Positions 10,953 through 63,983 of a stretch of 64,000 nt of DNA are shown here, in pieces. The position numbers were made by a program, and so were the translations under genes. The notes under the pieces are model-generated. The model had not been told where the DNA came from. It worked only from the letters and a program-made list of their open reading frames with translations, and made no database searches. Source of the DNA: Pseudomonas sp. BSw22131 (GTDB lineage Bacteria; Pseudomonadota; Gammaproteobacteria; Pseudomonadales; Pseudomonadaceae); contig NZ_CP113949.1 of the NCBI RefSeq assembly GCF_026810445.1, forward strand, positions 1,674,001 to 1,738,000, written 5' to 3'. The number at the start of each line of letters is the position of its first letter. The first letter of the stretch is position 1.

Positions 10953-10967
10953 TGGCCCATCCCTTGC
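10953..10967 (+). promoter_or_regulatory. Sigma-54 (RpoN) promoter of the nitrate reductase gene
   Basis: TGGCCC-N5-TTGC matches the -24/-12 sigma-54 element with one consensus change (A to C). The predicted start is near 10979, four bases before the first ANTAR hairpin, giving a leader of about 108 nt. Confidence 0.8.
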
Positions 10968-10982
10968 AACACCTCAGCCATA

Positions 10983-11002
10983 GGTGATCAACGCCGATTA
11001 CC
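10983..11002 (+). promoter_or_regulatory. ANTAR-target hairpin P1 in nitrate reductase leader
   Basis: GGTGATC pairs with GATTACC (7 bp, one G-T) around the hexaloop AACGCC, with A at position 1 and G at position 4 as ANTAR proteins require. It sits at the predicted 5' end of the transcript. Confidence 0.82.
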
Positions 11003-11007
11003 CTCTT

Positions 11008-11025
11008 CACGACAAAGGCGCCGTG
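11008..11025 (+). promoter_or_regulatory. ANTAR-target hairpin P2 in nitrate reductase leader
   Basis: CACGAC / GCCGTG (one A-C mismatch) closes the loop AAAGGC, identical to the P2 loop of the nirB leader. Its 3' half is part of the 5' arm of the terminator that follows, so P2 and terminator compete. Confidence 0.78.
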
Positions 11026-11069: not shown

Positions 11070-11086
11070 GGTTTCGGGAAATGGAT

Positions 11087-14000
11087 ATGGCGAGTCGAAG
11101 CGTTTCAAGCGTGTGTCCTTATTGCGGTGTGGGCTGCGGGATTGTCATGCAGGTGGAAAACAACCGCGTCATTAAAGTGAGCGGTGACAAGACGCACCCC
11201 ACCAATCGCGGGCGTCTGTGCACCAAGGGCAGCACGTGCGCCCAACCGCTGACCGAGTCCGGGCGGATGGAGTCAGCGTACGTGCGCGATGCGCGTCATC
11301 AGGAGCCGGTGCGGGCGGGGATCGATCACGCCATCAGCGAAACCGCTCGCCGTTTGCGCGCGATCATCGACACCCACGGCCCGGATGCTTTGGCGTTTTA
11401 TGTGTCGGGGCAAATGTCGCTGGAAGCGCAGTACCTCGCCAGCAAGCTTGCCAAGGGCTTCGTGCGCACGGCGCATGTCGAATCCAATTCGCGACTGTGC
11501 ATGGCAAGCGCTGGCAGCGGCTACAAACTGTCGCTTGGCGCTGACGGACCGCCAGGCTCCTACGAAGATTTCGACAAGGCCGACGTGTTCTTCGTGATCG
11601 GCGCGAACATGGCCGACTGTCACCCGATTCTCTTCCTGCGCATGATGGATCGGGTCAAGGCCGACGCGCAGTTGATCGTCGTCGACCCAAGGCGCAACAC
11701 CACGGCCGACAAGGCCAGTCTGTTCATGCAGATCAAACCCGGTACAGACCTGGCCCTGCTCAACGGCCTGCTTTATCTGCTGATGGAGAACGGCCATACC
11801 GACCCTGCATTTATAGCCTCGTTTACAGAAGGCTGGGACGCGATGCCGGCGTTTCTGGGCGACTACACTCCCGACAAAGTCGCGCAGATAACCGGGCTGG
11901 CCGAAGCCGATATTCGTCAGGCCGCCAAGATGATCGGTCAGGCCCGCGACTGGATGAGCTGCTGGACCATGGGCCTGAACCAGAGCACCCACGGCACCTG
12001 GAACACCAACGCGTTATGCAATCTGCATTTGGCGACAGGCGCCATTTGTCGCCCCGGCAGCGGCCCGTTTTCACTCACCGGGCAACCGAATGCCATGGGC
12101 GGAAGGGAAATGGGCTACATGGGCCCAGGACTTCCCGGACAGCGCTCCACGCTGGTGGCCGAGGATCGATCCTTTATAGAAGCGATGTGGGGCGTGCCGG
12201 CGGGCACCCTGCGAACCGAGTCCGGCAATGGCACCGTGGCGATGTTCGAGCAGATGCGCGATGGCGACATCAAAGCGTGCTGGATCATCTGCACCAACCC
12301 GGTGGCGTCGGTCCCCAACCGACAAACCGTAATCGAAGGCTTGCAGGCAGCCGAGCTGGTGATCACGCAGGATGCGTTTCTCGACACCGAAACCAACCGC
12401 TACGCCGATATTCTGTTGCCCGGCGCACTGTGGGCGGAGGGCGACGGCGTGATGATCAACTCCGAGCGCACCCTGACGCTCACGCAAAAAGCGGTGGACG
12501 CGCCCGGTGAAAGCCTGCCGGACTGGCAGTTGATTGCTCGGGTCGCCTGCGAAATGGGTTACGCCGACGCGTTCACGTATGCGTCGGCCAGCGAGGTGTT
12601 CGAGGAGATCAAGCGCGCCTGGAACCCCAGGACCGGCTATGACATTCGCGGCGCCAGCCATGCGCGGCTTCGCGAACGACCGCTGCAATGGCCGATTGCC
12701 GCTGACGATTCAGACGAACGCAATCCGATTCGTTACCTCAATGATGGAGTCAGCCAAGCGCTGACAGTTGCGTCAGACGGAAGTCGTCCTGCCGTAGTAT
12801 TTCCAACCGCCAGCGGTAAGGCGGTGTTCTTGCCGCGCCCGCATTTGTCCCCGGCAGAAATGCCCAGCGAAGACTTCCCGTTCGTGCTCAATACCGGTCG
12901 GGTGCAGCACCAGTGGCATACGCTGACCAAGACCGGGAAGGTTCCGACACTCAACAAGCTCAATCCCGGGCCTTTCATCGAGCTGCATCCCAAAGATGCG
13001 GCAGCGCTTGGCATCAAGGACAAGGACGCCGTAGAAGTACGTTCGGTGCGCGGCCGTGCGGTGTTGCCTGCTGTGGTGACAGATCGGGTACGCCCCGGAA
13101 ATTGCTTCGCGCCGTTTCACTGGAACGATGTGTTCGGCGACAACCTGGCGATTAACGCGGTCACCAGCGATGCGGTGGATCCTGTGTCGTTTCAGCCGGA
13201 GTTCAAGTTTTGCGCAGTGGCGTTGCAACGGGTCGAGCTGATAGCCCATCGCTTCTTTGAAACCACGTCCGCTGCCGAGGTAGCGTTACCGCCCGAGGGT
13301 AAACCGGGGCTGACGTTGCTCTGGGCTTCGCAAACCGGCAACGCCCAATCCCTGGCCGAACGTTTCGGCAGCCGTTTGCGGAACGCCGGCATTGCCATTG
13401 ATGTGCGCGCGATGGACAGCTTCCCGGCTGCGCAACTGGCGCAAGTGGATAATTTGGCGCTCATCAGCAGCACCTTCGGTGATGGGGAGTCGCCGGACAA
13501 CGGGCAGAGTTTTTGGCAGTCGCTGAGCCAACACGACGCCCCGCTCGAAAACCTTCGCTACGCGGTGTTGGCGTTGGGCGACCCGAGTTACGACCGCTTT
13601 TGCCAGCACGGTAAAAACCTTGATCAGCGCCTCGAAAGCCTCGGCGCTTGCGCTTTGTTGCCTCGTGTCGATTGCGATCCGGAATTCGAGGAGCCCGCGG
13701 ATGCCTGGTTCAAGGCGCTGCAACAGGCGCTGGCCCTTGATGTGCCTGATGTGGTTGGAGTTGAGGGTGTGTCGGCGGTGAGGCTGCACACCCGTTCGCT
13801 TCCATTTTCATCTGGCTTGTCGATCAATCGACGCCTGAACACCGAGGGCACGCAAAAGGACACCCGGCAGTTCGCGCTGGCGCTGGGTGATTCGGGCTTG
13901 CACTACGAGGCTGGCGATGCCCTTGGCGTGTGGCCGCGTAACTGTCCGGAACTGGTCAACGAGTTGCTCGACCTGACAGGTCTTGACCCCGAGCACCTGG

Positions 14001-14890
14001 TAACGATTGAAAAATACGGCGACGTGCCGCTGGGCGAAGCCTTGGCTGGGCATTTCGAGATCGCCAGGCCGCATTTCGACACGTTGCAGTTCATCGCCGA
14101 ACGCGGCGGCAGTCCTGAGCTGAAAATACTGTTGGGCGACACTTATAAAGGTGAGCTGAAAGACTGGTTGTGGGGGCGGCAGTTGGCGGACGTGCTCCAG
14201 GCATTTCCGATGCGTTGCAGCGCTGAAGATCTGCTGGCCTCACTCAAGCCCCTGCAGCCACGCTCGTACTCCATCGCTTCGAGTTCCAAAGCGCATCCGC
14301 ATGAGGTTCATTTGACCGTCTCAACGGTGCGCTATGGCAAGCGCAAAGGTGTGTCTTCGACGTTCCTCGCTGACCGCGCCGAGCAGTGCGAGGTGCCGAT
14401 TTTCCTTCAGCCGTCCAAACATTTTCGCGTACCCGGCGACGGCGATGTGCCGATGATCATGATCGGACCGGGCACCGGCGTGGCGCCGTTTCGCGGGTTT
14501 CTTCAGGAGCGCAGGGCGCGTGGCGATGGCGGCAAGAACTGGCTGTTCTTCGGCGAGCAACATGCGGCGACCGATTTTTATTACCGCGATGAGTTACAGG
14601 CCATGCAGCAAGACGGCCTGTTGACCCATCTGAGCCTGGCGTTCTCACGGGATCAGGGTGAAAAGATTTACGTGCAGCATCGTATCGAGCAGCAGGGCGC
14701 CGAACTGTGGCGCTGGTTGCAGGAAGGCGCGCAGGTGTATGTCTGCGGCGACGCGGTGCACATGGCCAAGGACGTGGATCTGGCGTTACGGCAGGTCATT
14801 GCGCAGCATGGCGGATTGAGCGAAGAGGCCGCGGCAGGCCATTTGCGCCTTCTGACTGAGCAGAAGCGTTATCTGCGGGATGTTTATTAA
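11087..14890 (+). CDS. Bifunctional assimilatory nitrate reductase / CysJ-like flavoprotein
   Basis: A 1267-residue fusion. Residues 1 to about 720 are a molybdopterin-guanine-dinucleotide nitrate reductase (NasA/NasC type) with a 4Fe-4S site at C10, C13, C17 and C45. From about 743 a flavodoxin domain (SQTGNAQS), then a CysJ/P450-reductase-like FAD and NADPH module with RSYS at 1059-1062 and GPGTGVAPF from 1127. It would take electrons from NAD(P)H through FAD and FMN to Mo-bis-MGD and reduce nitrate to nitrite in the cytosol, replacing a separate reductase subunit. The start at 11087 is preferred over ATG 11081 because GGGAA sits at 11076-11080. No nitrate transporter or nasST is in the window. 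Confidence 0.93.
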   Translation: MASRSVSSVCPYCGVGCGIVMQVENNRVIKVSGDKTHPTNRGRLCTKGSTCAQPLTESGRMESAYVRDARHQEPVRAGIDHAISETARRLRAIIDTHGPDALAFYVSGQMSLEAQYLASKLAKGFVRTAHVESNSRLCMASAGSGYKLSLGADGPPGSYEDFDKADVFFVIGANMADCHPILFLRMMDRVKADAQLIVVDPRRNTTADKASLFMQIKPGTDLALLNGLLYLLMENGHTDPAFIASFTEGWDAMPAFLGDYTPDKVAQITGLAEADIRQAAKMIGQARDWMSCWTMGLNQSTHGTWNTNALCNLHLATGAICRPGSGPFSLTGQPNAMGGREMGYMGPGLPGQRSTLVAEDRSFIEAMWGVPAGTLRTESGNGTVAMFEQMRDGDIKACWIICTNPVASVPNRQTVIEGLQAAELVITQDAFLDTETNRYADILLPGALWAEGDGVMINSERTLTLTQKAVDAPGESLPDWQLIARVACEMGYADAFTYASASEVFEEIKRAWNPRTGYDIRGASHARLRERPLQWPIAADDSDERNPIRYLNDGVSQALTVASDGSRPAVVFPTASGKAVFLPRPHLSPAEMPSEDFPFVLNTGRVQHQWHTLTKTGKVPTLNKLNPGPFIELHPKDAAALGIKDKDAVEVRSVRGRAVLPAVVTDRVRPGNCFAPFHWNDVFGDNLAINAVTSDAVDPVSFQPEFKFCAVALQRVELIAHRFFETTSAAEVALPPEGKPGLTLLWASQTGNAQSLAERFGSRLRNAGIAIDVRAMDSFPAAQLAQVDNLALISSTFGDGESPDNGQSFWQSLSQHDAPLENLRYAVLALGDPSYDRFCQHGKNLDQRLESLGACALLPRVDCDPEFEEPADAWFKALQQALALDVPDVVGVEGVSAVRLHTRSLPFSSGLSINRRLNTEGTQKDTRQFALALGDSGLHYEAGDALGVWPRNCPELVNELLDLTGLDPEHLVTIEKYGDVPLGEALAGHFEIARPHFDTLQFIAERGGSPELKILLGDTYKGELKDWLWGRQLADVLQAFPMRCSAEDLLASLKPLQPRSYSIASSSKAHPHEVHLTVSTVRYGKRKGVSSTFLADRAEQCEVPIFLQPSKHFRVPGDGDVPMIMIGPGTGVAPFRGFLQERRARGDGGKNWLFFGEQHAATDFYYRDELQAMQQDGLLTHLSLAFSRDQGEKIYVQHRIEQQGAELWRWLQEGAQVYVCGDAVHMAKDVDLALRQVIAQHGGLSEEAAAGHLRLLTEQKRYLRDVY

Positions 14891-52124: not shown

Positions 52125-52615
52125 TTACAGCGAGTCACTTTTGCCAAACGCCGCAAAAGTAACCAAAAGGTCTTGCTCCCGTGTCCGGCCCGACTTCGTC
52201 GGGTTCCCTCACTCCGGCATTGCTCCGGGGACACGCCGCCATCGGCCATCCATGGCCGGGGGCGGCTAGCGCGGCATCCATGCCGCGCTGTCCCCTGCGC
52301 AACGCCTGCGTTCGGCCTTCCAAAGTCGCACTTTGCGGCGTATCCGAAGGCTCGGCACGACACAAAACCTATACGCATTTTTGTCTATCACTCAAAAGCC
52401 CGGCACGACACAAAACCTGTAGGAGCGAATTCATTCGCGAGAGGCCGGTGTGGTTTTAACAAAGCCCGACCCAGCGCCCAAAGCAGAAAAGCGAATGCCC
52501 TTGATCTTCACTCACGCCAGCCCAAACACCACAAATCGCGACCTGGGTGCAGGCCAAACCGGGAGCAAAAGCGGTTTGGTTACTTTTGGTGCTTTTCAAA
52601 AGTGACTCGCTGTAA
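52125..52615. repeat. MITE-like element with about 40-bp inverted ends
   Basis: The left end TTACAGCGAGTCACTTTTG...AAAAGTAACC (52125-52164) is mirrored by GGTTACTTTTG...CAAAAGTGACTCGCTGTAA (52578-52615). The inside holds no gene; it has a CGGCACGACACAAAACCT direct repeat at about 52354 and 52401 and a REP arm. The IS right end lies 9 bp away. The remaining gap 52616-52802 contains one more REP arm at 52729-52759. Confidence 0.65.
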
Positions 52616-57835: not shown

Positions 57836-58639
57836 TTACTCGGAAATCTGCAACTTGCGCGCTTCGGTGTACACGTAGCGGACTTTCTCGTATTCGAACG
57901 GCGAGTTCATCTGGCCATACCGGAAGCTGGTGTTGTAGCGGCGATCGATCGCACGCAGCAGGTAGATTTCCGGGTGGTCTTCACTGACCTGAGACACGTT
58001 CAGGAAGTTGATCTGTGACTCGGCAGTGAAGTCGAACAACAGGCCACCGGTGTCACGAAAGTTGGACGGCCCGAGAATCGGCAACACGAAGTACGGCCCG
58101 GCTGGCACCCCATAGAAGCCCAGGGTTTGGCCGAAGTCTTCGCTCTGGCGTGGCAAGCCCATCCAGGTCGCCGGGTCCCACAGCCCGGCGATGCCGAGGG
58201 TGGTGTTGACCAGCAGACGCCCGGTGGTTTCCATCGAGCGCTTACCTTTGAACTGCAGCAGGCTGTTCAACAGGTTAGGCACATCGCCCAGGTTGTTGAA
58301 GAAGTTGCTGACGCCTGTTCGCAAGAAGCTTGGGGTCACGTACTTGTAGCCGTTGACCACCGGCAGGAACACCCACTCATCAAAGCGGTAGTTGAAGTGG
58401 TAGACCCGGCGGTTCCAGGATTCGAGCGGGTCGTACACATTCAACGCGTTGAGCGTGGCGCGTTCGAACTCACGCTGATCAAGCCCCGGGTTGAATTTCA
58501 GCGACTTCAACGGCTCGGTGAAACCGTCCGAAGTCTCAAGTCGCTTGACTGGCGTTGCCTGGGAAATAATCGGCGCGTCGGCCGCATGAACCGCGCCTGC
58601 CAAGAGCAGCGCAGCAAGAAGAACGAGACGTTTAGCCAC
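57836..58639 (-). CDS. mlaA: Phospholipid transport protein MlaA (VacJ), without a lipobox
   Basis: A 267-residue MlaA-fold protein with family motifs YDPLESWNRRVYHFN (about 69-83), FFNNLGDVPNLLNSLLQ, TTLGIAGLWDPA, SEDFGQTLGFYGV and GPSNFRDTGG. MlaA removes mislocalised phospholipid from the outer leaflet of the outer membrane with a porin and MlaC. The signal peptide (LLAALLLAGAVHAADAP) looks like a signal peptidase I type; no Cys follows it, unlike E. coli MlaA. The GTG start at 58639 overlaps the hydrolase gene by 8 bp and has GGAG. Confidence 0.93.
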   Translation of the reverse strand: MAKRLVLLAALLLAGAVHAADAPIISQATPVKRLETSDGFTEPLKSLKFNPGLDQREFERATLNALNVYDPLESWNRRVYHFNYRFDEWVFLPVVNGYKYVTPSFLRTGVSNFFNNLGDVPNLLNSLLQFKGKRSMETTGRLLVNTTLGIAGLWDPATWMGLPRQSEDFGQTLGFYGVPAGPYFVLPILGPSNFRDTGGLLFDFTAESQINFLNVSQVSEDHPEIYLLRAIDRRYNTSFRYGQMNSPFEYEKVRYVYTEARKLQISE

Positions 58640-59930
58640 GGAAAAACTCCAGCATGGCGTCGGAGTTGACGCGGTAGTTCAGGTTGCCGCAATGACCGCC
58701 GTACGGATAAACAGTCAGGCGATCGCCAAAAGTCTTGCGCAGGAAACCGAGGTCGCCCGGGCCGAGGATCACGTCGTCAGCGTTGTGCATGACCGCGATT
58801 TTCTTGCTGGTGGCCAGGTAATCCTTGAGTGCGTAAAGGCTCACTTGATCGACCAGTTGCAGCAGGCTGCCACCGTCGGTGCGCGCGCGCCACATCGGAA
58901 TCACTTGTTCGGTCACGTAGCAATCGAAGTCGCATTGCAGGGCACGCTTGAGGAACGGCGTCAGGCTGGTGCCTTCAGTGATCGGGGTTTTCGGTGGCGT
59001 GATCAGGCCACGACGGTTGATCAGGTCCGAGGTAAACGCGATATCGGCTGCCGAGAAACGGAACGAGGTGCCGATGAGCATCGCCATCTGTTCGTTCGAC
59101 AAGTGCTGCTTGGACTGTTGGAAGTCGTAGAGCAGGGCGTCGTTGAGGTCGATGTAGCCTTTCTGGCGGAAGTAACGGGTCAATTTGGCCAGTACCAATT
59201 CATAGAATGTGGTGCTGTTGTTGATGCCTTTCACTTCGGTCTGGACCATTTTGTCCAGGTTGGTGATCGAGGTGTACAAGTTGACCGGCGGGTTGATCAG
59301 CAGCACTTTCTTGAAGTTGAAACTGCGACGGGTTTCGTCCAGATGGCTGACGAATGCAGCGTCCAGTGCGCCGAGGCTGTAACCGGTCAGGTAGTAGTCG
59401 GTGATCTGCAGCTTGGTCTGTTGGGCGCGAACGGCCTGCATCACGCGATACAAGTCTTCAGCGTCTTGCTGGGTCACACCTGGCGTTGCGAAACGTGAGG
59501 CAGCGCTCATGAAGTCGTAGCTGGTTGGCGATGACAGTTGTACGACGTGGTAACCGGCGCCGTAATACAGTTTTTTCAGGAATTCATTGAGCGTGCTGTT
59601 GTAAGGCGCGCCAGTGCCTGCGATCAAAAAGATCAGCGGGGCAGGGTGATCCTGTTTGGCAAGACGATAATGCAGTTTTTTAACGGCCCAGAAGTTGTCG
59701 GGAAGCGTGAACTCGCGTTCCGGGCGCATGGTCAGGCTGTAGTCGTCCTGATCGATGTCTGCGTCATCTGGCACTTTGCTGCGCAGATCCGGCGGAGTCG
59801 TGGCGATGGTCGCTTCGAACGGGTTGGTCAAAGGAAAGCCATAACTGGACGGGTCGACATCGACCGCCATCACGGACGCACTCAAAAAGAGGCCGCCGAT
59901 GACGGCGGCGAAGCGTAGAAAACGAAGCAT
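58632..59930 (-). CDS. Exported alpha/beta hydrolase, co-transcribed with mlaA
   Basis: A 432-residue protein with a signal peptide (FLRFAAVIGGLFLSASVMA). The nucleophile elbow is GYSLG near residue 190, after the oxyanion segment FLIAGTGAPYNS. The acid fits HNADDVILGPGD and the catalytic His GGHCGNLNYR near the end. It is probably a periplasmic or outer-membrane serine esterase or lipase-like enzyme; the substrate is unknown. The overlap with mlaA suggests a role in envelope lipid handling (inference). AAGGGA precedes ATG 59930; the upstream open frame to 60044 is not family-like. Confidence 0.85.
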   Translation of the reverse strand: MLRFLRFAAVIGGLFLSASVMAVDVDPSSYGFPLTNPFEATIATTPPDLRSKVPDDADIDQDDYSLTMRPEREFTLPDNFWAVKKLHYRLAKQDHPAPLIFLIAGTGAPYNSTLNEFLKKLYYGAGYHVVQLSSPTSYDFMSAASRFATPGVTQQDAEDLYRVMQAVRAQQTKLQITDYYLTGYSLGALDAAFVSHLDETRRSFNFKKVLLINPPVNLYTSITNLDKMVQTEVKGINNSTTFYELVLAKLTRYFRQKGYIDLNDALLYDFQQSKQHLSNEQMAMLIGTSFRFSAADIAFTSDLINRRGLITPPKTPITEGTSLTPFLKRALQCDFDCYVTEQVIPMWRARTDGGSLLQLVDQVSLYALKDYLATSKKIAVMHNADDVILGPGDLGFLRKTFGDRLTVYPYGGHCGNLNYRVNSDAMLEFFRG

Positions 59931-60153: not shown

Positions 60154-60528
60154 GTGTCTCGTCGTCTTCCGCTTATTGTGCTGTGCGTTGTGCTGGCTGT
60201 TTGGCTGGCGTTGAGTTACGGCCTGCGCTATGGGCTGATGGAAGATGTGCAGTGGGTTGGCATTTGTACCGATGAGGCGATGAATTGGGAGTGTGAGCTG
60301 CGCGCCAATCTTGGGCTGCTGATTCATTTTCAGGTGTTCGGGTGGGCCGCGCTGATCGCGTCGGTGGTGGCGTTCGTGATTCCGCACCGTACGGGCCGCG
60401 CTCTGGCGGTGGTCGGGCTGTTGTTGGGGATCCTCGCGCTGGTCTTGTACACCGCAAGTCTTGCGGTGTTTGCCGTGGTGATTGCCGGATTGAGACTGGT
60501 ACGCGCCGGTAAAACCGCACCCCTGTAG
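60154..60528 (+). CDS. Small membrane protein of unknown function
   Basis: A 124-residue protein with three hydrophobic helices (about 5-25, 58-80, 87-115). A short Cys-containing periplasmic loop VGICTDEAMNWECE separates helices 1 and 2, with Cys at about 44 and 53 that could form a disulfide. I recognise no family. GTG 60154 has GGAG eight bases upstream. Its TAG stop is supplied by the first bases of a REP repeat (CTGTAGG). Confidence 0.72.
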   Translation: MSRRLPLIVLCVVLAVWLALSYGLRYGLMEDVQWVGICTDEAMNWECELRANLGLLIHFQVFGWAALIASVVAFVIPHRTGRALAVVGLLLGILALVLYTASLAVFAVVIAGLRLVRAGKTAPL

Positions 60529-60603: not shown

Positions 60604-60639
60604 AATCAATCGGGGGCGCACTTCAAATCCCAGACAGCA

Positions 60640-60996
60640 TAAAGGGGAGCCTGGGCTCCCCTTTAAATCGTTTCACGTGCTCTTTTTTATTATTGTAGGG
60701 CGGCCTGTTATTGTTTTTGGCGACCAGTCCCTTTAAAGCTTTTGGTGATCCCCATTCGGGATACAAGAGCAAACGTATTTTTTTGAGCGCTGACCTGCTT
60801 TGATCAATCGATCCAACCGTGCTGGGCGCTACCTGAGGTAGTTTTATTGTTCTCTGCCTGGTTGCGGGGTCAACCCCCGGTAAAGCACTTCCACTCCAAA
60901 AAAATCTGTTAGCTGCGTCTCTGTGCCGTTGTTCTTGTTATGTCAGAGCCGATTCATCTTATTTTTATTGGGTTACCGCTTTTTATTCTTGTTATG
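60640..60996 (-). ncRNA. CrcZ/CrcX/CrcY-type small RNA that sequesters the Hfq-Crc repressor
   Basis: About 357 nt on the minus strand. It carries at least five A-rich Hfq/Crc motifs of the AAnAAnAA kind: ATAACAAGAATAAA near 60985, CCCAATAAAAATAAG near 60965, ATAACAAGAACAA near 60935, GAACAATAAAAC near 60850, AAAAACAATAACA near 60710 and TACAATAATAAAA near 60690. It ends in the GC hairpin AAAGGGGAGC / GCTCCCCTTT (60641-60664). A sigma-54 promoter lies at the predicted 5' end. In Pseudomonas such RNAs, made through CbrAB and RpoN, bind Hfq-Crc and lift catabolite repression. The region has no coding sequence. CrcX or CrcY is more likely than CrcZ, because cbrB and pcnB are not adjacent. Confidence 0.85.
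60641..60664 (-). terminator. Terminator of the Crc-type sRNA
   Basis: A perfect 10-bp stem AAAGGGGAGC / GCTCCCCTTT with a CCAG/CTGG loop and a short T-run, at the expected 3' end of the RNA. Confidence 0.8.
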
Positions 60997-61007
60997 CAGG
61001 AGATATA

Positions 61008-61022
61008 GCAGGGTGCGTGCCA
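61008..61022 (-). promoter_or_regulatory. Sigma-54 promoter of the Crc-type sRNA
   Basis: The minus strand reads TGGCAC-N5-CTGC, matching the -24/-12 consensus except for one T to C. The predicted start is about 60996, which places the first CA motif at the 5' end, as in CrcZ. Confidence 0.83.
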
Positions 61023-61103
61023 ACTTTTACAAATCCTTTAAAATCAATACGTTGGAGATTTCGTTCATTTGAGGAGCCGTGTTCAGACGGTTTTTTGTTT
61101 CCG

Positions 61104-61144
61104 TGTTACCCGCTTAATGGGCGTCTGTTCATCAAGCGGTAACA
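61104..61144. promoter_or_regulatory. CbrB-like enhancer dyad
   Basis: TGTTAC (61104-61109) and GTAACA (61139-61144) lie in arms that match further (CCGCTT / AAGCGG, one extra C). CbrB sites are described as TGTTAC-N12-16-GTAACA; here the gap is 29 bases. The dyad lies 80-120 bp upstream of the -24 box, a normal distance for an enhancer-binding protein. Confidence 0.55.
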
Positions 61145-61186: not shown

Positions 61187-62755
61187 TCACGCGCCCCTGC
61201 TCACGGCGTTGGGTTGTTGAAGGCTGCGCCAGAGCGCCAGGCTCATCAGCACACTGACTAACGCCCACGTCCATGCCTGCGGGTTGGCCACACCTTCGCG
61301 AAACAGCTGCGCGATGACACCACACCCGACTATCAACGCCAGCAAGGTGATTTCCCGGCGCGGCGCGGCAACCGGTCGAACCAGATAAAACAACGCAGGC
61401 AGCAAGATAGTTGCGGTCGGGAAGCTGCGGTAACGCGGATCGAATACCATGGCCAGCATCATCACCGCTGCCGCAAAGCCGGACGCGCACAGCCACCAGC
61501 CTGCGCGTGATTCCAGCCAGTTGAAGGCCTTGCCGCGCCAGCCCTGGCGTGCAGACAACGTCAGCGCAACGTGCGCCATCACCACCAGATTGAGCGCAAC
61601 CAGCAAGCCCGCCCAAACATATTCGCCCGAGAAACGACTGGTTACCCTGGCCAACTCACCCCAGGCGCCGATGCAGCACGCACCCAATGCTGCCGTTAAA
61701 GGAAGAAGCAACGCACTGCGCGTCTTTTCTACACGGCCTGCAAAAATCAGGGTCAGCAGGCTCATGCCGACACTGAAGGCCAGCCACAACGGCCAATGCG
61801 GCAAGTTCGATACGGGCCCGGCCAGCACGCCTTTGTCCTGACGATCGGCATCGAACAAGCCCCAATACCCGCCGACTGCGCCTTCGGCTGCGCGCTTCCA
61901 TGGCTGGTCGAACGCCTCGATCAGGTTGTAATGCCAGCCGTTCTGTTCAGCCATGGCGACGAAACCGCGAATGAACTTCGCCTCATTGACGCGACTGGGC
62001 AGCGCGGTTTCCCGCTGGCGGCCTTCGCTCGGCCAGCCGGTTTCGCCGATCAGGACGTCCTTGGGCGCGAACCGTGCGCCGAAGGTTTGCCGAATCTGCG
62101 CGACATGCGCCAGCGCGTCATCAATACCTTTAGGGTCATCTTCCCAGTAAGGCAGCAGATGGATCGTCAGGAAATCCACCGCGGGCGCGACTTCCGGGTA
62201 CTGCAGCCAGAATTCCCAGACGTCTGCGTACGTCACCGGTTGCTTGACCTGAGCCTTGACCTGACGAATCAGCGTAGCCAGTTGCGCGCCGGTCAACTCT
62301 TTGCGCAGTAACACTTCGTTGCCGACGATCACGGCGCTGACCACGTCCGGGTTGGCGTTGGCCTCTTCGATCAGGGTGTTGATCTCTTTTGCGGTGTCCA
62401 CCGGATTGCTGTTGACCCACGCGCCGAGCATCACTTTCAGGCCGTGCTTGCGGGCCAGGGCCGGAATCGCTTCCAGGCCAGTCATCGAGTAGGTGCGGAT
62501 GCATTCAAAGCGGGTTGCCAGCAGCGCCAGATCGGCATCCATGCGCTCCGGGCGCAACTTGAAGGGCTGGTCGAACGGGGACTGATCCTTATCGAATGGC
62601 GTATAGGACGCGCATTGCAGCTTGTGGGTCGGTGTGGCGGCGTCCGGCAAAATGACCGGTTTACCGATGCCGAACCAATAAATACACAGGGCGAAAATCG
62701 CAAATACACAGGCAAACACATAGATGACGACAGGGGAGCGGGAATGGGCGGGCAT
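61187..62755 (-). CDS. GH17 glucan-processing membrane protein
   Basis: A 522-residue protein. An N-terminal helix (about 10-30) is followed by a glycoside hydrolase family 17 domain (about 45-315). The acid/base Glu is in VIVGNEVLLR (near 148) and the nucleophile Glu in LIGETGWPS (near 240). About six membrane helices fill the C-terminal 200 residues. Related proteins act on beta-1,3 or beta-1,6-glucans or add branches to cyclic glucans. The active site would face the periplasm. No ndvB-like synthase is nearby. The start at 62755 gives a normal membrane anchor; the ribosome site is weak. Confidence 0.88.
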   Translation of the reverse strand: MPAHSRSPVVIYVFACVFAIFALCIYWFGIGKPVILPDAATPTHKLQCASYTPFDKDQSPFDQPFKLRPERMDADLALLATRFECIRTYSMTGLEAIPALARKHGLKVMLGAWVNSNPVDTAKEINTLIEEANANPDVVSAVIVGNEVLLRKELTGAQLATLIRQVKAQVKQPVTYADVWEFWLQYPEVAPAVDFLTIHLLPYWEDDPKGIDDALAHVAQIRQTFGARFAPKDVLIGETGWPSEGRQRETALPSRVNEAKFIRGFVAMAEQNGWHYNLIEAFDQPWKRAAEGAVGGYWGLFDADRQDKGVLAGPVSNLPHWPLWLAFSVGMSLLTLIFAGRVEKTRSALLLPLTAALGACCIGAWGELARVTSRFSGEYVWAGLLVALNLVVMAHVALTLSARQGWRGKAFNWLESRAGWWLCASGFAAAVMMLAMVFDPRYRSFPTATILLPALFYLVRPVAAPRREITLLALIVGCGVIAQLFREGVANPQAWTWALVSVLMSLALWRSLQQPNAVSRGA

Positions 62756-62862: not shown

Positions 62863-63706
62863 TTAGGCCGCCAGCTTTTCGAAAATAGCAGGCGGCAGGT
62901 TCTTTGCGGCAGTGTGGCAACGACGATGGTTGTAGTGTGCAATAAAATCCATCACGTCCCGCTCTGCCTCAAAGTGATTGGTGTAACCATTTTCAGGTGA
63001 CCAGTCGTGCTTCTGTGATCTGAAATAACGCTCCACCACGGCGTTGTCCCAGCAGTTTCCGCGTCTACTCATGCTTTGCACGATCTTCTTCTCCCTCAGA
63101 TAGGCCACAAATCGATCAGCGGTGTACTGACATCCCTGGTCCGAGTGAAAAACCAGTTCCGGGGAAGGCCTGCGCATCCCCACTGCCAACCTCAATGCCC
63201 GCAACGACAGCTCGGTATCGGCTGTTCTCGAAAACGCCCAGCCAACGATTCTGCGTGAGAAAAGATCCATCACGACCGCCAGGTACAACCAACTGCCCCC
63301 GACCCTTATGTACGTGATATCGCCCGCCCAAAATGTATTAGGCCGTGCTGGGTTGAAGCGGCGCTTGAGCACATTCGGCGCAACACTGGACGGCTTTGTC
63401 ACACGACGATAATGCTTGTACTGCGCTTTACGCCTGACCAGCCCGAGGCTCTTCATCAAACCGCGCATGCGATGGCGCCCGATTACGAAACCCTCGATCT
63501 TCAGCGCTTTGGCAAAGCCGGCTGCCCAACGCGCCACGGTGGTCTTTGTGCAAACCACGGATTTTGATTTCAAGCTGTCGATCAATGCGCCTTGGAGGCT
63601 TGGGGCGGCGCAGGGCGTAATAGGTGCTGCGGGGCACACCCAGCACACGACATTTGTGGCGAACCGATAAACTTGTCCCGCGCCCTCGATCATGGTCTTC
63701 GGCCAA
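62863..63706 (-). pseudogene. IS3-family transposase OrfB, frameshifted
   Basis: The N-terminal part (VRHKCRVLGVPRSTYYALRR, then LHKDHRGALGSR) is in one frame and the rest (AKALKIEGFVIGRHRMRGL to the end) in another. The join is at a run of three A (63514-63516, plus strand), where one extra base relative to the expected CGG-CTT-GCC-AAA sequence shifts the frame. The integrase core is otherwise complete: FWAGDITYIRV (D), HSDQGCQY (D) and NAVVERYFRSQ (E). It is probably inactive unless the shift is a sequencing error or is bypassed. Confidence 0.8.
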
Positions 63707-63983
63707 ACAGCACCTTTAGATGAGAGGGCAACTGCTTTTTTAGGACATCATTTTCGGCCTCCAGCAGCGCATCTGGCCTGCAACGAACGATCAGATCCTG
63801 ATCTTGCGGGCGTGCGGTTTGCGCCGCTCCTATCTGCTCCTTGCGCCATCGCCAAACCCATCGCCGCAGTGCAGTGGGCCCAACGCCTGTCTGCTCGCAT
63901 GCCTTGGGTATTGAGTATTTCATCTCGACGACCAAGCGTATTGCCTCGGCCTTTTCTTCAGCGCTGACGACCCGAAATCCCAT
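63690..63983 (-). CDS. IS3-family transposase OrfA
   Basis: A 97-residue protein with an HTH (SIPKACEQTGVGPTALRRW, about 24-42) and an acidic leucine-rich segment ALLEAENDVLKKQ near the end. The mRNA has A6G (CTAAAAAAG) at the KK codons, the slippery site type used by IS3 elements for -1 frameshifting into orfB. It binds the IS ends. Confidence 0.85.
   Translation of the reverse strand: MGFRVVSAEEKAEAIRLVVEMKYSIPKACEQTGVGPTALRRWVWRWRKEQIGAAQTARPQDQDLIVRCRPDALLEAENDVLKKQLPSHLKVLFGRRP

Follow-up and report, generated by a model that had tools for sequence, protein, structure and literature searches.

The small RNAs CrcZ, CrcY and CrcX are regarded as sponges for the Hfq-Crc repressor, active once the preferred carbon source is exhausted. 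In Filiatrault et al. (2013), crcX was reportedly considered unique to P. syringae. The genomic location of crcX was not found in the available sections of the literature on this RNA. CrcX of P. syringae pv. tomato DC3000 is, like the RNA presented here, a member of the family additional to crcZ and crcY, and the available sections of two papers report it as dependent on RpoN and CbrB (PMC8657755, PMC8871633). In the same partial sources, crcZ and crcX of P. syringae are described as RpoN-regulated with CbrB as activator, and CrcZ and CrcY of other species as CbrB/RpoN-driven decoys of Hfq-Crc (PMC8657755, PMC8871633, PMC5429807). The CbrB consensus, as published in the section available of PMC8871633, is TGTTAC-N12-14-GTAACA-N15-19-GTAACA.

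The locus lies in a stretch of 64,000 nucleotides of Pseudomonas sp. BSw22131, which was analysed as a whole and is referred to as the window. A gap of 658 bp separates the stop codon of a small membrane-protein gene (60528) from that of a GH17-domain gene (61187). On the minus strand, this gap contains a full-length match to the Rfam CrcZ model RF01675 (60995–60609; model positions 1–398 of 398; 297.1 bits for a cut-off of 95; E 3.2e-82), the extent of which, 60609–60995, delimits a crcX-type small RNA gene. The match extends to 60609, beyond a terminator-type hairpin (60641–60664, minus strand), and the 3′ end of the RNA is probably this hairpin, near 60641. Read by eye, the U-run of the hairpin is short and inside the stem. 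A search of a plasmid collection returned no match.

The RNA contains six AANAANAA clusters, given here with their starts first: AACAAGAATAAAAA (60993–60980), AATAAAAATAA (60969–60959), AACAAGAACAA (60939–60929), AACAATAA (60851–60844), AAAAACAATAA (60718–60708) and AATAATAAAAA (60694–60684), all on the minus strand. The fourth is kept in 21 of 26 crcX copies and each of the others in all 26. In 2000 dinucleotide-preserving shuffles, the number of clusters averaged 1.01 (sd 0.89) and reached 5 at most, and none was found on the opposite strand of the RNA. With a variant of the motif in which a pyrimidine is obligatory, other 387-nt stretches of the window contain two clusters at most; one extra cluster is located at 61099, upstream of the predicted start.

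A sigma-54 type −24/−12 promoter core, GG-N10-GC, is found at 61008–61021 on the minus strand as TTGGCACG-N4-CTGCT, a string that occurs once in the window when both strands are counted. From the positions of GG (61020–61021) and GC (61008–61009), transcription is predicted to start at about 60996, 3 nt ahead of the first CA cluster. A GG-N10-GC core is present within 40 nt upstream of 26 of 26 crcX, 42 of 42 crcY and 49 of 49 crcZ copies, and of seven of the eight other copies. Between the upstream site and the promoter, an IHF-type site, AATCAATACGTTG, is located at 61042–61054 on the plus strand, as identified with the IHF consensus. Such matches occur in the spacers of 18 of 26 crcX, 23 of 42 crcY and 5 of 49 crcZ copies, and 0.004–0.007 are expected by chance per mononucleotide-shuffled sequence. 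By covariance-model score, CA motifs and sigma-54 promoter, the RNA belongs to the CrcZ/CrcY/CrcX family (RF01675). A sequence-only reading had proposed exactly such an RNA in the 658-bp gap, with five or six Hfq/Crc-type motifs on the minus strand, a terminator hairpin, and a −24/−12 promoter whose start coincides with the first motif; these proposals held, the number of motifs being six, above the count in every shuffle.

Two other RNA families were matched in the window. A narK RNA match (10954–11024, plus strand, 61.3 bits) is located just upstream of a 1269-residue fusion of molybdopterin oxidoreductase and flavodoxin reductase (11081–14890), which is probably an assimilatory nitrate reductase. 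A partial TwoAYGGAY match (52229–52293, minus strand, 49.2 bits for a cut-off of 43) lies between two reading frames that by eye resemble a transposase and a pseudouridine synthase.

Further upstream of the promoter, a candidate CbrB-type site, TGTTAC-N29-GTAACA-N2-GAAACA, occupies 61096–61144 on the minus strand, with TGTTAC at 61144–61139, GTAACA at 61109–61104 and GAAACA at 61101–61096. The TGTTAC/GTAACA dyad of the sequence-only reading is therefore present, with a spacing of 29 nt, and the site also includes GAAACA. It is the only TGTTAC-N25–33-GTAACA pair of the window, and TGTTAC-N25–31-GTAACA-N2-GAAACA is found at two places only in the genome, before crcX and before crcY. Among the family copies collected, TGTTAC-N27–31-GTAACA-N2-GAAACA precedes 21 of 26 crcX, 30 of 42 crcY and 2 of 8 other copies, and no crcZ copy out of 49; the exact pattern is thus absent from five crcX copies. 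TGTTAC-N12–16-GTAACA precedes 46 of 49 crcZ copies and none of the 26 crcX or 42 crcY copies. crcX and crcY hence share one form of upstream site, mostly TGTTAC-N29-GTAACA-N2-GAAACA, unlike that of crcZ. The resemblance to a CbrB site that had been noted in the letters is borne out: candidate subsites of the F1 and R types are present in the crcX/crcY spacing, but the spacing of the full published three-subsite consensus is absent upstream of the RNA.

The subsites of crcY were dissected in P. putida. According to the available part of that study, substitution of F1 had the largest effect and that of R2 a milder one, and substitution of R1 or of an extra GTAACA, R′, had no effect on expression; R′ is centred at −112 in the paper's own counting (PMC6296734). 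In the window copy, GTAACA is centred at −110.5 and TGTTAC at −145.5. By position, the GTAACA half of the dyad thus corresponds to R′ as described in that part of the study, and GAAACA may be R2, an assignment made by the present analysis.

The genome (5,739,290 bases, one contig) has three family matches. The first (C1:1012501–1012896) is located between the genes of a sigma-54-activator response regulator and of PcnB, with a histidine kinase gene beyond the regulator, and is crcZ. Kinase and regulator are called CbrA and CbrB here by position and domains, as no library model names them. The second (C1:2725109–2725515) is found between a hydroxymethylglutaryl-CoA lyase (mvaB-like) gene and an acyl-CoA-dehydrogenase-like gene and is of the crcY type, the place beside mvaB being that of crcY. 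The third is the window copy. As the cbrB-pcnB and mvaB sites are both occupied by other copies, the window copy can be neither the crcZ nor the crcY of its own genome. It is a third copy apart from those two, in the P. syringae/P. lutea lineage, and is of the crcX type, CrcX being preferred to CrcY because the crcY-type copy sits elsewhere. The sequence-only reading was right that the context is not cbrB-pcnB; its designation as the second copy, CrcX or CrcY, was right as to crcX and has to be amended to one of three. The window copy is 72.3% identical to the crcY-type copy, with which it shares six CA clusters, the sigma-54 core and the form of the upstream site; it differs from it in place. 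CrcY is otherwise described from P. putida and A. vinelandii. Identity to crcZ is 69.8%; the two belong to the same Rfam family and both have six CA clusters and a sigma-54 core, but they differ in place and in the spacing of the upstream site. The partners of the family are all encoded in this genome: Hfq, RpoN, the CbrA/CbrB-like pair of kinase and sigma-54 activator beside crcZ, and Crc, for which the best solved matches are 2myi (deposited as exodeoxyribonuclease III) and 4jg3 (catabolite repression control protein).

The distribution of the family was surveyed in an even sample of 219 genomes of the genus Pseudomonas. At least one match was found in all of them; by hand count, one match is listed in 22 genomes, two in 170, three in 25 and four in 2. 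In 22 of the 27 genomes with at least three listed matches, one copy is located, as in the window, upstream of a pair formed by a gene for a 432-residue protein and mlaA. In the other five (G064, G092, G096, G160 and G212) the extra copies are elsewhere. The four listed matches of G092 are two full copies and two fragments, side by side. At the crcY place, G096 (L211) and G064 (L220) each have two adjacent copies, and the extra copies of G160 and G212 fall near the crcY of their own genome in the RNA tree. From these pairs and near-crcY extras, crcY seems to have been duplicated more than once within the genus. Contexts were counted in 24 other genomes of the genus. Besides G001, which has crcZ and one copy in another place, the 17 two-copy genomes have crcZ and a crcY-type copy; four genomes have crcZ alone, and G020 and G018 have three copies, as has G022. 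Elsewhere among the two-copy genomes of the 219, a crcX without crcY could have been missed.

Type X was assigned by the adjoining 432-residue/mlaA pair, and that all X copies lie there is consequently true by definition. Independent support for the type comes from two trees, one of the CbrB and PcnB proteins and one of the RNAs. In the protein tree of 47 genomes, 21 crcX carriers form one clade with a support of 100; the 22nd carrier, G220, is outside the tree, as no cbrB was matched on its contig. None of the sampled members of the clade is without crcX, a statement about a sample in which genomes with at least three matches are over-represented, so that losses could be missed. For the set of RNA loci, 19 short loci gave way to longer versions from the same place; with L029 removed and two rows merged with the named loci that they duplicated, 125 rows were left. 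The midpoint-rooted tree comprises 123 RNAs, L151 and L183 being left out. Of the crcZ copies, 47 of 48 form one clade. The crcX copies, 20 crcY copies and two others of the same lineage form another, with a support of 100, within which 25 of 26 crcX copies group together with a weak support of 67, the UMAB-08 crcX copy falling on the crcY side (93). On this sequence evidence, the origin of crcX is close to crcY and lies in the ancestor of a single clade.

According to the part available of PMC10974278, P. graminis WP8, UASWS1507 and DSM 11363 are in the P. lutea subgroup and GR12-2 is in the P. caspiana branch. With the filing of strains known to that extent, the crcX-carrying clade includes strains of both the P. 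lutea and the P. caspiana branches. By CbrB and PcnB identity (94.6–95.5%), the genome of the window is nearest to G161, G020, G095, G193, G191 and G081, from which it probably belongs to a species of the P. lutea branch, and not to P. syringae in the strict sense. DC3000, in contrast, is a P. syringae strain, and orthology of the window copy with the DC3000 crcX is suggested by the clade, rather than by a comparison of sequence or neighbourhood.

Four genes frame the RNA. The GH17-domain gene (61187–62755, minus strand; PF00332, 38.6 bits for a cut-off of 28.2) is on one side. On the other are the membrane-protein gene (60157–60528, plus strand, a reading frame whose start is not fixed), the gene for the 432-residue protein (58632–59930, minus strand), which adjoins every copy typed as crcX, and mlaA (57836–58639, minus strand; PF04333, 227.1 bits). 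Neither the membrane protein nor the 432-residue protein has a Pfam or NCBIfam match. As the RNA gene follows the GH17 gene in the same orientation and is convergent with the membrane-protein gene, it might be conceived as a local regulator tied to one of these neighbours, instead of a global decoy. This is hardly credible in view of the distribution of the genes. Among the best 80 of at least 581 relatives of the GH17 locus, in which the RNA was sought by nhmmer with a profile of oriented cores, it is present at 6 and absent from 74, 71 of which also match the membrane-protein, 432-residue and mlaA genes. Conversely, of the 26 distinct crcX sequences, 12 have GH17 alongside, and for the other 14 neither GH17 nor the membrane protein is matched in about 4 kb of flank. 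The RNA as a functional partner of GH17 was rejected on these two counts. The "glucan" gene beside which the sequence-only reading had placed the RNA does adjoin it, but as an incidental neighbour, since 74 of those best 80 loci are without the RNA.

The distance between the GH17 and membrane-protein genes, measured from tblastn ends, has a median of 107 bp at the 71 crc-free loci (again among the best 80 of at least 581), including artefacts, as 8 of the 71 distances come out below zero and 5 are longer than 1 kb; it is 525–707 bp at the six crcX loci and 658 bp in the window. In the simplest reading, a crcY-like unit would have been copied together with its upstream site into the gap between the GH17 and membrane-protein genes in an ancestor, and some members of the clade would later have lost these two genes or had them displaced. 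Other material was observed around this gap. The GH17 start is preceded, at a distance of 107 bp, by the end of an IS3-type transposase pair (rve integrase core and HTH_Tnp_1; 62863–63983, minus strand). Five crc-free loci among the best 80 of at least 581 have a gap of more than 1 kb before the membrane-protein gene. At L054, the distance from the GH17 gene to the gene for the 432-residue protein is long, and the gap contains a 357-residue reading frame (L054:5573–6646, minus strand) that resembles an RHS core by eye and has no Pfam match. The GH17/membrane-protein gap may take up insertions repeatedly.

The conservation of the crcX copies bears on another explanation. With two further family members in the genome, the window copy could be a silent or decaying extra crcY copy that has kept the look of the family and lost its importance, and truncated copies do exist elsewhere, such as the crcY-site copy of G203 (290 nt, at a contig end) and those in pieces in G092. 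Yet the mean pairwise identity of the 26 crcX copies is 0.776 over the RNA and 0.483 over the spacer from the upstream site to the promoter, but 0.227 in the downstream flank and 0.266 in the flank upstream of the site. The RNA is thus well kept over a divergent clade and the flanks are not. Five of the six CA blocks are found in all 26 copies, the promoter core and upstream site are intact in the window copy, and the carriers form a clade in which, within the limits of sampling stated above, crcX is always present. A silent or decaying copy is therefore quite improbable. The window copy is very probably a crcX-type gene for a CbrB/RpoN-driven decoy RNA of Hfq-Crc.

The features of the RNA other than the CA clusters were also compared. 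The consensus fold of the 26 crcX copies has 76 pairs, 14 of which, including pairs of the terminator-type hairpin, show at least one two-sided change; the covariation term is small (−2.68 out of −70.39 kcal/mol). Across the RNAs of the three subtypes, the stretch that is near-invariant over the greatest length, CGUUUGCUCUUG, is not a CA motif. In the window RNA, the near-invariant non-CA element CGTTTGCTCTTG is at 60764–60775 on the minus strand and corresponds to the longest run of columns with a conservation of at least 0.93 among 123 family RNAs. An exact 11-mer of it is found in 42 of 42 crcY, 41 of 48 crcZ and 25 of 26 crcX copies, and in five of the seven others. It is unpaired in the Rfam consensus. 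In the predicted fold of the window RNA, CGTTTGCTCTTG pairs with AAGAGCA (60678–60684, minus strand), the central pairs having a predicted probability of about 0.95, and this helix appears in the consensus fold as well. Among the 26 copies, compensatory changes on both sides are absent from all seven of its pairs, and the pairing is broken in several exceptional sequences among the 123. An antisense target was sought through the complement of the conserved element: a 14-mer with at most one mismatch matched the three crc genes only, so that no target was found by that route.

The role of CGTTTGCTCTTG lies outside what the decoy model explains. It is conceivable, if rather doubtful, that the family does work beyond that of a decoy, CGUUUGCUCUUG being functional and crcX and crcY forming a separately tuned branch of the switch. 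CGUUUGCUCUUG may then be a pairing seed or a site for another protein, or may pair over a long distance with AAGAGCA, ahead of the terminator, in a helix that would govern the display of the CA motifs.

By analogy with the studied members of the family, the decoy would operate as follows. When the preferred carbon source is low, CbrA/CbrB and RpoN, probably with IHF, would switch on the gene and give a transcript of about 350 nt that begins near 60996 and ends at the hairpin near 60641. The six CA motifs would bind Hfq, and Crc would stabilise the complex, so that the repressor would be drawn off the mRNAs that carry CA motifs. The crcX RNA would act in parallel with the crcZ and crcY of the same genome. 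Transcription, dependence on CbrB/RpoN and titration of Hfq-Crc are all ascribed to the window copy from these studied relatives.

The locus is best regarded as a further member of a known RNA family, presumably with the ordinary function. The genome gains an intact-looking global regulator, and crcX would acquire a place, a single intergenic gap in one clade, and a history as a crcY-like unit that has an upstream site of its own. The position of the gap would mark the point at which an additional copy became established in one branch of Pseudomonas. Points of interest are the conserved non-CA element and the form of upstream site shared by crcX and crcY; with the latter, whether the copies may be tuned differently or may simply be redundant becomes testable.
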